Below, piece after piece: positions 226 to 60,858 of a stretch of DNA of 64,000 nt. How positions within the stretch are numbered: position 1 is the stretch's first letter; each line of letters opens with the position of its first letter. The notes below the pieces were generated by a model. It made no database searches. It was not told the DNA's origin and saw only the letters and a program-made list of their open reading frames with translations. A program made the translations under genes and the position numbers. Source of the DNA: Akanthomyces muscarius (Eukaryota; Ascomycota; Sordariomycetes; Hypocreales; Cordycipitaceae); the NCBI RefSeq assembly GCF_028009165.1, contig NC_079243.1, positions 3,658,001 to 3,722,000 on the forward strand, written 5' to 3'.

Positions 226-363
226 GGACCCATGGCGCAACGGTAGCGCGTCAGATTCCAGTATTGGAACTTCCTGAAGGTGTACGTACCAACAACATCT
301 TTAACACAATAACTACTTGTGTCTAACCCCATAACAGTAGGCGTTCGAATCGCCTTGGGTTCA
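226..363 (+). tRNA. tRNA-Trp (CCA) with two introns, copy 1
   Basis: Cloverleaf read by hand. The acceptor stem is 226-232 with 356-362 and the discriminator is A363. The D-arm has GCGC/GCGC stems. The anticodon CCA is at 258-260, and the T-arm is AGGCG/CGCCT around TTCGAAT (339-355). The anticodon stem has one A-C mismatch next to the loop. A 10-base intron (262-271) follows position 37 and carries TGGAA, which pairs with the anticodon region as in normal nuclear tRNA introns. The mature form only closes if a second segment, 282-337 (56 bases), is also removed from the variable loop. That segment begins GTACGTA, has CTAAC near 323-327 and ends ACAG. With both removed the tRNA is 72 bases with a normal 5-base variable loop. 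A T-run follows. The identity as tRNA-Trp is well supported; how the second intron is removed is not known from sequence. Confidence 0.85.
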
Positions 364-381
364 ATTCCCTGTTCCGAACAA

Positions 382-387
382 TTTTTT
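382..387 (+). terminator. Pol III T-run after tRNA-Trp copy 1
   Basis: Six T residues 19 bases past the tRNA 3' end, as expected for RNA polymerase III termination. Confidence 0.6.
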
Positions 388-481
388 GCACTTTTCTCGA
401 ATTTTTGACGATTTTTTTCTTGGCCGTAGCAATACATCGTGCCACTATTCAAGCGGACTTAAGCGGCCTCGAAGCCAAGCC

Positions 482-619
482 GGACCCATGGCGCAACGGT
501 AGCGCGTCAGATTCCAGTTCCTGGAACTTCCTGAAGGTGTACGTAATCTTATCCTGCCTCCCTTTGCGAGTGCAATATCTAACTCCTTAACAGTAGGCGT
601 TCGAATCGCCTTGGGTTCA
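482..619 (+). tRNA. tRNA-Trp (CCA) with two introns, copy 2
   Basis: Same direction as copy 1 and about 120 bases downstream, with identical acceptor, D-arm, anticodon and T-arm text. The anticodon CCA is at 514-516. The first intron is 518-528 (11 bases, after position 37). The second is 539-593 (55 bases) in the variable loop and again begins GTACGTA, has CTAAC and ends ACAG. The T-arm is 595-611, the 3' acceptor strand 612-618 and the discriminator A619. The middles of the two second introns do not resemble each other, while their first seven and last roughly fifteen bases do. A run of eight T residues follows at 640. This looks like an intact tandem duplicate rather than a pseudogene. Confidence 0.85.
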
Positions 620-49245: not shown

Positions 49246-49965
49246 CTTGTGTTTCTTATTTTTTTGGCATTGTGGTACGCGAAAGTGGGTCAAGGAAGCG
49301 GACCTGGCCGGTGTTTGCGCTGCAGTGCGGGGGCCCGAGGGTGCGCAGATATGGCTGCTTTGGTAAAAACTAACAGCCACTGATTCTGTGGTAACGTACG
49401 CCGGATGTTTTTCTTTTTCTTTTTGGGGGACAAGCGGAATAAACCTGGATCTCCGGTATCGTGCCTGGCATTTATACCAGGGTGTGTAAACTCTGGCTCT
49501 GTACAAAGGACGTTGAGGAAGCCCCGCCATACAGCTACTGGGCAATTCAGCTACGAGAAGGCCCCCGCTGACTGTGATGGACAGAATTTCTACGTGTAGG
49601 TGGCTGACGATGTGTATATTCGTATAGCAGGCTGCATAACATGCTATGTATGCCACTATATAGAACAAGGCAGCGCCTGATATTTACCAATCCAAGCCAG
49701 GCCATGATTCAACCCTCGCACGTTTTTCAAGTCGACAGTACGAAGTAACGTTAGTCCCAGTGTTGCTTGTGTTGTGTACAGCCCACGGATGTACCCACCC
49801 CCACGAACAAACCTCTGGAACGAATTTAAAAATTCGTCGTATATAACTTGTATTCATTCCCCAAGCATTGACAACATCTTCAGACTAACTGCCATGTCGC
49901 TGGTAATGTGGCTGATGGCGACCTGGTGATATCGATATAACCCATTTTTAGGAAGCTTTCGTCGA
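49246..49965. other. Spacer between the two tRNA-Cys genes
   Basis: 720 bases without a recognisable gene, apart from the terminator T-run. Confidence 0.45.
49259..49265 (+). terminator. Pol III T-run after tRNA-Cys copy 1
   Basis: Seven T residues about 14 bases past the tRNA. Confidence 0.6.
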
Positions 49966-50065
49966 GCTCGGATAACTCAGTGGTAGAGTACGGGATTGCA
50001 GTTGTGTGGGTCTTTACCCACCTGCGACCATCCTGAAGTCATCAGTTCGATCCTGGTTCCGAGCT
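49966..50065 (+). tRNA. tRNA-Cys (GCA) with intron, copy 2
   Basis: Same body as copy 1 with a few changes. The anticodon GCA is at 49998-50000 and the intron at 50002-50029 (28 bases). That intron forms a GTGGGT/ACCCAC hairpin and has CTGC, which can pair with the anticodon. The T-arm is ATCAG TTCGATC CTGGT, different from copy 1 but fully paired. The discriminator is T50065. T-runs follow at 50078 and 50101. Confidence 0.9.
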
Positions 50066-50741
50066 TATCAACTTTGCTTTTTGGCTGCACGAGGTGCAAC
50101 TTTTTTGCTTGACGGTGCAGTTTGGACGTTACTTCTTCTATTTCTTTCCTTGATAATCCTCTTTTCATTCCCACAATCCTTCCATCTACGACTGACTGTA
50201 CGATACGTGGCTTCCAGCCTGTGCACACGGGGAAAACTTCCTCCATACAAGTCTGTCGATCAGTGACACTGAACCGTTGTCCAATTCGCTTCTCCGACCC
50301 GGCTTGACCTTGCTCTGTAGTCCTTCCTCACTTATTGTCATTAAATATACATGTGAGGTGCCGTATATGCTAACAACGACTATATTATTGGATTATGTAG
50401 AATCACAGCAAGCCGGCACGGCGATGCACCGCTGGGATAAGACGCCGAGCTAACGCTTTACAATGCAACTCTACCCCGAACCCGCATCTGTAGCCCATAA
50501 CACCACTTCACTAGACAAAAGATTGTTCCCTGTACCAGTATATACTAGTCTTTTCCAATTCGTGAGCTTCCCCTCCTCAAGCAGATCGGGCCGAAGCTAG
50601 CTCTCACTTCTTCATGTAGCTTACATCCGCAGCATGTAGTCCTCACATCTGGCCTTTTACTCTCCTCCTTTACTACCTTGCCTGATGTCCTTTTTGTATA
50701 TACAGCTTCCCATTTGTAAATATTCAAGTCGTCTCTCAAAT
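50066..50741. other. Intergenic, no gene seen
   Basis: tRNA 3' flank, then the promoter of the CVNH-like gene. A minus-strand frame of about 90 codons overlaps the tRNA and is not convincing. Confidence 0.45.
50078..50082 (+). terminator. Pol III T-run after tRNA-Cys copy 2
   Basis: Five T residues 13 bases past the tRNA, backed up by six T residues at 50101-50106. Confidence 0.5.
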
Positions 50742-58551: not shown

Positions 58552-60858
58552 TCAAGCCTTTGCTTCCTCGGCATCACTGTCCGGAAAAGACACCGATTCA
58601 GCCGTACCGACCGTCGTATTGTCCGTCTCCGTCGCGCTGCTGTCTGACCGATTATCCGTATCCGTCATCGTCGACGCGGCCGACGTCATTGTGCGCTCAT
58701 CCTCGCCCTCCGAGTCGAGACCGGCCGGCGAGTCAAGCGCCGTGGCCTCGTAATGGACGCTCCGCGGCAAGCTCGTTTCGGCATCCTGCATCTCGTCTTC
58801 CTCGGCGTCGAGAACCATGCTAGGGTCGATGCATTCGTAAAAGAGCATAAAGACGCCAGGCGACAGCGACATGACTGTTTCGTCGGTGACTTTGCTGACG
58901 TTGTGGTCGCTGAGTCGCCACCATGTCGGCTCGCCCGCCGCGACGGCATCGCTTGATTCCTCAGCCGACTCCTCAACCTTGGTGTCTGTATCGGCAGTGG
59001 CCTGTTGTCCTGCGTCCTCTGCATCATTCTGAGTTCCAGACGTTTGACCTTCTTCGGCGACTCTTTCATTGCGCGTAGAAGATTCGTCTGACAATCCGGC
59101 TGCAGCCTTTGGCTCGGACGCTATCTCTGGTGCAGTCTTCTCGGGTACTTGTTCTGTTTGTTCCTCCGCAGCGTCTTCTGCTGCTGTTTCTGCACCTTCC
59201 ATCTTTTCGCTAGGAGTCTGACTGCTCGGTGCAGACCGCGGATACCTGCGGTAGCATATATAGTGACCATTCTCGTGCCGGCCATAGTGCGTAACAGCTG
59301 CGCGCAGCTCGTAAATTGGGCCAGAGAGCCGCGAGCGGCTGCTGTCCCCCGCAATCAAAGAAGCCATCGACCCTGTCGGCCACAGCTCCTCGCCGTCGAC
59401 GCTGCCAGCCTTGCCGCCCGAGCTGCCCAGACACCACGGGCCAAGATCCAGCGTCATGGGAAAATGCACGGGTGCCGAGTTTTTAATCATGTCAAACGTG
59501 GCTGGATCAAACACAGAGCGATTCATATGCACAGCCAGCGACTGCGGCGGGCGGCCAATCACTATTTGTTTCGTCTTGGTCGTCGTCACTATGCTTTTTG
59601 GTGAGATTTTGCAGGCGCCGCGCAGCGTGTTTTCGTCAAAGTCGTCTTCCTCCAACGCAAGATTGACTGCCTCCAACCGCCGTATCGAGTCAGTCAGCTG
59701 CGCCTCCGGCATATTGCTCTGCTTCATCTTTTCCAAGAGGCTCGTCAAAAGCCCCTGTGACTTCAAAAGTGTGCATTTCGGGCATTCGACACCCTCAATA
59801 GCCTCGACCTTGGTGTAAGCATCTAGACGTTCGTAGAGATCATGTTGGTGTTTCTCTAGCCCGAGGCTTAGTGTCAGGCAGTTGAAAGGAATCATGGAGA
59901 TCCCGTCCGAGTGGCCACATCGTATACATGCCACTCGTTGCGCGAGTAGCCCCTCCAAGGGATTCCGAATCAGCTTCATATCGGACAACCTTGGGTCAGG
60001 GCTGACGCTTTGGTATCCACTGTCGTCGCTGTTTTCGCTGGGCGTGGCATCGTCCTTGACTGGTGCGTCACGTTTCAGTCCACGCTGTGGCCGACTTTCC
60101 CGCACTGCCTTGGTCACACCCTTTTCAATGTCGTCCAATATTTTCGAATAGTATTCTTGCGCATCTTGCTGCGTCCATGTGCTCATCGATTTTAGGACAC
60201 CTGGCGTCCACAAAGTCTGTCCGTAATTCTCGAAGTCGTTCAGATCGGAAATGAGTGTTTTCAAAGTTTGAGCGACACTGTTGTTGGATTGCTCAGCGTC
60301 CAGATTCTTGAGGCATGTCGACAGAAATTCGGGTATCGAATCGAGAGAGGACAATCCTTGTAGAATACTGTTTTGGTAGCACGAGTTATCAATGTTCCCC
60401 AGCCCTGGCGGCCCACCGGATTGCGTCTTTATGCCAAAGACACTACCTGTGGCTGACAGCGCGCGGCTTCTAGCCTTGAGAACTGATGCCATCATGCCTC
60501 CGGGACGGCCCAGCCCTATTACGCGGCGCATTGCATCGCTCTTGGCCGTGTGGGTGTTGCTCTCGTTCATCGGCTGAAACGGGTTGACCCAGCTGTCGAG
60601 GGCAAAAATTAGACGGGCGGGTAGTATATAGACGAGCGCTTCGAGCAGGATGTTGCCCGCCGATGTCACGACAGCGTCAAGAGTTGTTTCCTGGCCATAC
60701 GCTCGGTAGAACAGAGTAGCCGCCAGGACCAGCAGCGAGATGCTCCAGCCGGACCACTGAAACTTTGCCCACAGCGTCTCGTTTGTCGAAAGTAGTCGTC
60801 GGTGTGCCAACACACGCTCGTTGTAGAAGTTGGTAAGCGCCTCGTCTTCGGAGTTCAT
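58552..60858 (-). CDS. UBP1: Membrane-anchored ubiquitin-specific protease (Ubp1-like)
   Basis: Single exon of 768 residues. Two hydrophobic segments (about 36-52 and 63-86) near the N-terminus anchor it in a membrane, as in yeast Ubp1 and human USP30. The Cys box is GLGNIDNSCYQNSILQGL, with catalytic C160 (canonical GNT replaced by DNS). TQQDAQEYYSKIL is the QQDA motif. CIRCGHSD...CPKC is a zinc-binding pair. The His box HYGRHENGHYICYRRYP lies near 530. An acidic, Ser/Thr/Glu-rich tail (about 545-768) is interrupted by WWRLSDHNVSKVTDETV and VFMLFYE, the end of the USP fold; the insert in between is disordered. It removes ubiquitin from membrane-proximal proteins. Confidence 0.87.
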   Translation of the reverse strand: MNSEDEALTNFYNERVLAHRRLLSTNETLWAKFQWSGWSISLLVLAATLFYRAYGQETTLDAVVTSAGNILLEALVYILPARLIFALDSWVNPFQPMNESNTHTAKSDAMRRVIGLGRPGGMMASVLKARSRALSATGSVFGIKTQSGGPPGLGNIDNSCYQNSILQGLSSLDSIPEFLSTCLKNLDAEQSNNSVAQTLKTLISDLNDFENYGQTLWTPGVLKSMSTWTQQDAQEYYSKILDDIEKGVTKAVRESRPQRGLKRDAPVKDDATPSENSDDSGYQSVSPDPRLSDMKLIRNPLEGLLAQRVACIRCGHSDGISMIPFNCLTLSLGLEKHQHDLYERLDAYTKVEAIEGVECPKCTLLKSQGLLTSLLEKMKQSNMPEAQLTDSIRRLEAVNLALEEDDFDENTLRGACKISPKSIVTTTKTKQIVIGRPPQSLAVHMNRSVFDPATFDMIKNSAPVHFPMTLDLGPWCLGSSGGKAGSVDGEELWPTGSMASLIAGDSSRSRLSGPIYELRAAVTHYGRHENGHYICYRRYPRSAPSSQTPSEKMEGAETAAEDAAEEQTEQVPEKTAPEIASEPKAAAGLSDESSTRNERVAEEGQTSGTQNDAEDAGQQATADTDTKVEESAEESSDAVAAGEPTWWRLSDHNVSKVTDETVMSLSPGVFMLFYECIDPSMVLDAEEDEMQDAETSLPRSVHYEATALDSPAGLDSEGEDERTMTSAASTMTDTDNRSDSSATETDNTTVGTAESVSFPDSDAEEAKA

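Follow-up and report, generated by a model that had tools for sequence, protein, structure and literature searches.

Candidate spliceosomal introns in nuclear tRNA genes of Akanthomyces muscarius

At least 13 tRNA genes of six isoacceptors in the 36.2-Mb genome of Akanthomyces muscarius (Trp ×2, Asn-GTT ×3, Ser-GCT ×3, Ser-AGA ×3, Ser-TGA and Thr-TGT) carry inserts that are most probably spliceosomal introns (U2-type, GT–AG) within nuclear genes transcribed by RNA polymerase III (Pol III). The inserts are real, and the genes are able to work only without them. A spliceosomal origin had been put forward in the original prediction for two tRNA-Trp genes. It is the best supported of the readings compared, with like inserts in five further isoacceptors and with a bulge–helix–bulge at the exact ends lacking in all 13.

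Layout of the two tRNA-Trp genes

The window (the whole stretch of DNA analysed, 64 kb) contains two tRNA-Trp(CCA) genes on the + strand, at 226–363 and 482–619. Both were scored above the gathering threshold of 29 by the Rfam tRNA model (39.2 and 39.8 bits) in spite of their inserts; ARAGORN with default settings gave zero tRNA calls across the window. The first copy is composed as follows, all features lying on the + strand: exon 1 (226–261; acceptor 5′ strand, D arm and anticodon; placed by Rfam RF00005 and by the letters), which includes the A box (233–244); an ordinary anticodon intron of 10 nt after position 37 (262–271; placed by pairing with the anticodon loop); exon 2 (272–281; 3′ strand of the anticodon stem and V-loop AGGT; by the letters); a spliceosomal-type intron of 56 nt in the V loop (282–337; by its splice signals); and exon 3 (338–363; final V-loop base, T arm, acceptor 3′ strand and A73; by Rfam and the letters), which includes the B box (343–353). 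Within the insert the donor GTACGT occupies 282–287, the branch motif TCTAAC 322–327 (branch A at 326) and the acceptor CAG 335–337. A T6 run at 382–387, placed by consensus only, is the likely Pol III terminator.

The second copy, also on the + strand, repeats this order with exon 1 at 482–517 (Rfam and letters; A box 489–500), an ordinary anticodon intron of 11 nt at 518–528 (pairing with the anticodon loop, and letters), exon 2 at 529–538 (letters), a spliceosomal-type V-loop intron of 55 nt at 539–593 (splice signals; donor GTACGT 539–544, branch motif TCTAAC 578–583 with branch A at 582, acceptor CAG 591–593) and exon 3 at 594–619 (Rfam and letters; B box 599–609). The likely terminator, again by consensus only, is a T8 run at 640–647.

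The coordinates of both V-loop inserts had been given exactly in the original prediction, as was verified letter by letter, and the short anticodon intron claimed for each copy was found to pair with the anticodon loop in the style of endonuclease introns (4/4 central and 2/3 outer pairs). When both introns are taken out, either copy yields one identical product of 72 nt with the V loop AGGTT, in agreement with the expected 72 bases and five-base variable loop. The same V loop is found in three eukaryotic tRNA-Trp sequences. In the spliced product 20 of the 21 pairs form and A31–C39 of the anticodon stem is left unpaired; the minimum-energy fold retains the acceptor stem, and its overall shape is not a cloverleaf. 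That the two inserts resemble each other at their ends only was likewise borne out: all 14 donor, branch and acceptor bases are the same, and the middles are 40% identical versus 48% after shuffling. The flanks of the two copies are 55% and 61% identical. A narrow form of the signal, drawn up in retrospect from the full set of 13 inserts, is confined within the window to the two Trp sites (2 on the + strand and 0 on the − strand; base-reversed control 0 and 1).

Some further features of the window were recorded. The 3′ trailers of the Trp genes before the T run are unusually long (18 and 20 nt, within 364–387 and 620–647) and hold a second B-box-like GGTTCAAT. The trailer UUCCGA or UUCCGG can be paired by eye with UCGG or CCGG of the leader (leaders 219–225 and 476–481), and one paired change from U–A to C–G between the copies was noted in the same way. 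A tRNA-Cys(GCA) gene at about 49965–50066 has an ordinary anticodon intron of 28 nt. A ubiquitin hydrolase encoded at 58552–60858 shares 77–79% identity with proteins from Beauveria, Cordyceps militaris and Aphanocladium and 90% with one further record, in line with a fungus of the Cordycipitaceae (Hypocreales).

Interrupted tRNA genes across the genome

The genome (36.2 Mb, 12 contigs) was searched with patterns in which donor, branch and B box follow in tandem. The first pattern matched 30 places (14 + 16; read backwards, 6 + 8), eight of them in tRNA genes (Trp ×2, Asn-GTT ×3, Ser-GCT ×3); seven loci from these places were studied closely and the rest were judged by their printed letters. 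The second pattern, with a longer gap, matched 25 places (19 + 6; control 11 + 11), Ser-AGA ×2 and Ser-TGA among them; four of the 25 were fetched and three of these proved to be tRNA genes. The third Ser-AGA gene was found by BLAST, and Thr-TGT by ARAGORN, beside another tRNA gene. Patterns that required CTRAC, or had been chosen accordingly, gave 8/13 genes and the second pattern three more, the Trp, Thr and third Ser-AGA genes having been found otherwise or independently. In other terms, nine genes were obtained with patterns that demanded donor and branch, and four (Trp ×2 from the original prediction, Thr-TGT and the third Ser-AGA) did not come from an intron pattern. Because the genome-wide patterns covered GTANGT donors only, 13 is a lower bound.

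Four kinds of site are occupied by the inserts: the D loop following GGTT (Ser-AGA ×3, Ser-TGA), the anticodon stem at 28/29 (Asn ×3), the anticodon itself at 35/36 (Ser-GCT ×3, Thr-TGT) and the V loop (Trp ×2). The A and B boxes are left free in all 13 genes. Every insert is 51–60 nt long, starts with GT(A/T)NGT (GTAAGT in seven, GTACGT in five, GTTAGT in one), that is, with a GT donor close to GTRNGT, and ends in AG (acceptor CAG in ten, AAG in two, TAG in one). The branch motif is CTAAC in 12 inserts and CTAAT in one, and the branch A stands 11 nt (eight inserts) or 12 nt (five) from the 3′ end. Ser-TGA, like Trp, has an additional short intron after position 37, whereas the introns of the Lys, Tyr and His genes are of the ordinary type only. 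All 13 interrupted genes are followed by a run of at least five T that starts 2–20 nt downstream.

The boundaries of the inserts are given by tRNA structure and, for Thr-TGT, also by a sister gene. Every unbroken stretch that differed from the insert by no more than 6 nt in length was removed in turn from the gene, and the resulting cloverleaf was scored (575–935 alternatives per gene); in none of the 13 genes did another excision score above that of the insert itself. Ties that lead to another product were few for Asn (1/714 per gene), Ser-GCT (three each) and Thr-TGT (two). They were more numerous for Ser-AGA (25–26), Ser-TGA (33) and Trp (51 and 52 of 575), since the score ignores loop content and many ties therefore arise at loop sites, the Trp V loop included. 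An uninterrupted Thr-CGT gene 0.8 kb from Thr-TGT (contig C5, 2971777–2972815) is 93% identical to it in an ungapped alignment of the full 72 nt, and the boundaries of the Thr-TGT insert are thereby fixed, apart from one base of slide that makes the GT–AG choice one of two options. Judged by this alignment, the Thr pair is a natural case, side by side, of intron gain or loss.

One pair of inserts from different isoacceptors is notable with regard to a common origin: the last 15 insert bases of Trp copy 1 (window 323–337) and of the first Ser-AGA gene are identical (CTAACCCCATAACAG), a match reached by 2% of 60 shuffled sets. Conversion from intron to intron, or a common source, is possible. 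Two interrupted Asn genes form an inverted pair within 1 kb (C4, 4047954–4048862), as do two interrupted Ser-GCT genes (C2, 4011558–4012409), and in both pairs the middles of the inserts are unlike. The interrupted Asn and Ser-AGA genes gave no match in public viral contigs, nor did Asn in public genome contigs, as was to be expected because these collections are not made of fungi.

Probable mode of excision of the inserts

As a yardstick, 37 coding introns were inferred ab initio from 99 candidate clusters; they were kept if CT[AG]A[CT] lay 5–25 nt from the end and the length was 45–90 nt, and 16 of the 37 came from loci that had been picked by an intron pattern. The inserts resemble these spliceosomal introns of protein genes in donor, branch, acceptor and size (51–60 nt versus 46–87 nt). 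They differ from them in that their exons are tRNA and in that the branch A stands 11–12 nt from the end in 13/13 inserts versus 8/37 coding introns (Fisher's test, 6e-7; counted by isoacceptor, 6/6, 5e-4). Runs of four T are present in 0/13 inserts and 12/37 coding introns (p 0.015; shuffled inserts, P 0.35), which is no more than suggestive of selection by Pol III against T runs inside the inserts. Several observations count against a spliceosomal reading: the branch spacing is tight, unlike the wider spread in coding introns; A31–C39 of spliced Trp is unpaired; and U6 is uninterrupted. The last was seen when U6 was tried as an internal parallel: two U6 snRNA genes (C2, 3037284–3037384; C11, 31203–31303) were found, both without an insert, although in other fungi U6 is the Pol III RNA known to carry spliceosomal introns; U6 of this lineage therefore provides no parallel.

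The endonuclease acting at an odd site, which the original prediction had named as the alternative, was assessed by the bulge–helix–bulge, defined as at least three of the four central and at least two of the three outer pairs. At the exact ends this structure is formed by 0/13 inserts (random placements, 5%) versus 4/8 ordinary introns of this genome, the ends of which were set by eye. When nine slides of the ends are allowed, the figures become 2/13 inserts, 7/8 ordinary introns and 32% of random placements. Other geometries also failed. On these counts it is very unlikely that the tRNA splicing endonuclease cuts the inserts out at non-canonical sites, in the manner of archaea and red algae, and that their mRNA-like ends arose by chance or have another role, even with two inserts reaching the structure by sliding and with non-canonical endonuclease introns being described for archaea, nucleomorphs and Cyanidioschyzon (PMC4090602). 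Such a reading would also leave unexplained why the CTAAC motif keeps a fixed spacing in 13/13 inserts. None of the positions occupied (D loop, 28/29, 35/36, V loop) is the usual eukaryotic one after nucleotide 37.

Under the spliceosomal reading, Pol III would read through the inserts, from the intact A and B boxes to the downstream T run, and the spliceosome would remove the intron of 51–60 nt in the nucleus by way of the CTAAC branch 11–12 nt from the 3′ splice site. From Trp and Ser-TGA transcripts the ordinary anticodon intron would also be taken by tRNA endonuclease and ligase; the order of these two steps is conjectural. The spliceosomal step would be obligatory for Trp, Asn, Ser-GCT and Ser-AGA. 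It is thus probable, as far as sequence can tell, that a class of nuclear tRNAs is spliced by the spliceosome, obligatorily for at least these four (decoding would then depend directly on the machine that splices pre-mRNA), with two unrelated splicing systems acting on each Trp and Ser-TGA transcript and with introns gained at some five different sites, including one where a gain or a loss followed the split of Thr-TGT and Thr-CGT.

Need for the genes and relation to known introns

Intact copies were sought by BLAST with the spliced products in the fungus's own genome. Two Trp, three Asn, three Ser-GCT and three Ser-AGA places were returned, every one interrupted: Asn and Ser-GCT matched in two separate halves, Trp in its 5′ parts only, and Ser-AGA in 3′ parts and one 5′ part. 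No uninterrupted copy of these four tRNAs was found by this search, which reaches fairly similar sequence only; the same kind of search did recover the uninterrupted Thr-CGT gene. Splicing would therefore be obligatory for these tRNAs. An intact tRNA-Trp gene elsewhere, considered in the original prediction as a possible supply, was looked for in a second way as well. The pattern GGTAGNNCNNNNNNYTCCAR, from A box to anticodon, matched 19 places (control 37), namely the two Trp genes and 17 places without a signal in the tRNA model R1. The A box with up to three mismatches matched 135 places (control 163), the two Trp genes alone exactly; 18 of the other 133 were put to model R1 and gave Arg-CCT and one weaker match, the model not being specific for Trp, as Arg genes score above the interrupted Trp genes. 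ARAGORN reported 53 tRNA genes in 49 loci (corresponding to 50 of the 51 Rfam tRNA hits), none of which was called Trp, Asn or Ser; four of its "Thr" calls were reread as Ile. Rfam scored 63 of 781 candidates, and diverged intact copies could therefore have been missed.

The spliced Ser genes were aligned in six rows, the identical Ser-GCT_1 and Ser-GCT_3 being entered once. All 138 of 138 cells are paired, and 15 of the 23 pairs are changed on both sides, a number as high being reached in 0/500 shuffles; slid controls are 34–47% paired. Part of this paired change falls between different isoacceptors, as it would among tRNAs of any kind. Within isoacceptors, U–A replaces A–U at 2–79 in Ser-GCT_2, C–G replaces G–C at 6–75 in Ser-AGA_1, and G–C replaces C–G at 46–53 in Ser-AGA_3. 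By the evidence of this alignment, the spliced Ser exons show the covariation that functional tRNAs have. Between copies, the exon parts are 91–100% identical (the Trp figure takes in the ordinary intron, and the Ser-GCT_2 figure is short of one base), 12–14 of the 14 signal bases agree, and the insert middles are 40–84% identical; the corresponding values are 44–56% for the 50 nt upstream and 43–62% for the 40 nt downstream.

That the interrupted genes are decayed or silent copies, with other genes supplying the cell, is very unlikely in view of these data: the stems of all Ser genes are kept through paired changes, the exon parts are far better conserved than the flanks, and the searches described brought up only interrupted genes for Trp, Asn, Ser-GCT and Ser-AGA. 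What speaks for silent copies is that intact ones too unlike the queries could have escaped, given the share of candidates scored by Rfam, and that one Thr sister is uninterrupted, though its anticodon differs. A single long intron after position 37 of each Trp gene, with the V-loop insert as its 3′ part, can be practically dismissed: a covariance model free to open one long insertion did align both genes in this manner, but with a worse anticodon stem (one extra non-standard pair in copy 2, two in copy 1), and with the V loop ACAGT instead of AGGTT. TCCTGAAGGT is the same in both copies, and a single long intron would say nothing of the other isoacceptors.

In PMC4390854 and PMC13149111, introns are sorted by machine, those of pre-mRNA being recognised by snRNAs and those of pre-tRNA by the endonuclease; the latter assignment is also made in PMC4090602 and PMC3978253. 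The nearest precedent for the spliceosomal reading is the mRNA-type intron in U6 snRNA of fission yeast, a spliced Pol III RNA (Tani and Ohshima, as cited in PMC10484740). Both would be spliceosomal introns within a short structured Pol III RNA; the present host is unlike it in being tRNA, with several isoacceptors and sites, in a genome whose own U6 is without an insert. Ordinary eukaryotic tRNA introns interrupt the same kind of gene, and Trp and Ser-TGA carry both kinds, but the inserts differ from them in position, greater length, GT–CTAAC–AG signals and the lack of a bulge–helix–bulge at the exact ends. With the non-canonical tRNA introns of archaea, nucleomorphs and Cyanidioschyzon they share locations in the D arm, anticodon stem or V loop (PMC4090602, PMC3978253); the archaeal and Cyanidioschyzon introns rest on a bulge–helix–bulge, and the inserts do not. 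As introns, the inserts are of a known kind; as tRNA introns, they have no precedent in the literature searched. No spliceosomal intron in a tRNA gene is reported there, in keeping with the original prediction, which knew of none described in a nuclear tRNA; subscription papers and preprints lay outside the search, and priority is thus not established.

If the spliceosomal reading is true, introns of this type in essential tRNA genes break the rule that introns are sorted by machine, and tRNA production needs the spliceosome beyond the usual tRNA-cutting enzyme. The spliceosome would then be routinely able to act on short Pol III transcripts, and translation capacity would be tied to splicing. 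The Thr pair presents a gene of 72 nt both with and without its intron, the two states on either side of a gain or loss. Such introns would also explain tRNA genes overlooked by standard finders: in the scanned loci, at E up to 0.1, all four Ser genes with a D-loop insert went unreported by Rfam, as did the first Asn gene. In the same database, RF04354 (Plastid-ycf2) gave a sub-threshold match of 26.7 bits antisense to the tRNA-Thr gene (L138, 593–665); antisense tRNA sequence may be part of that model.
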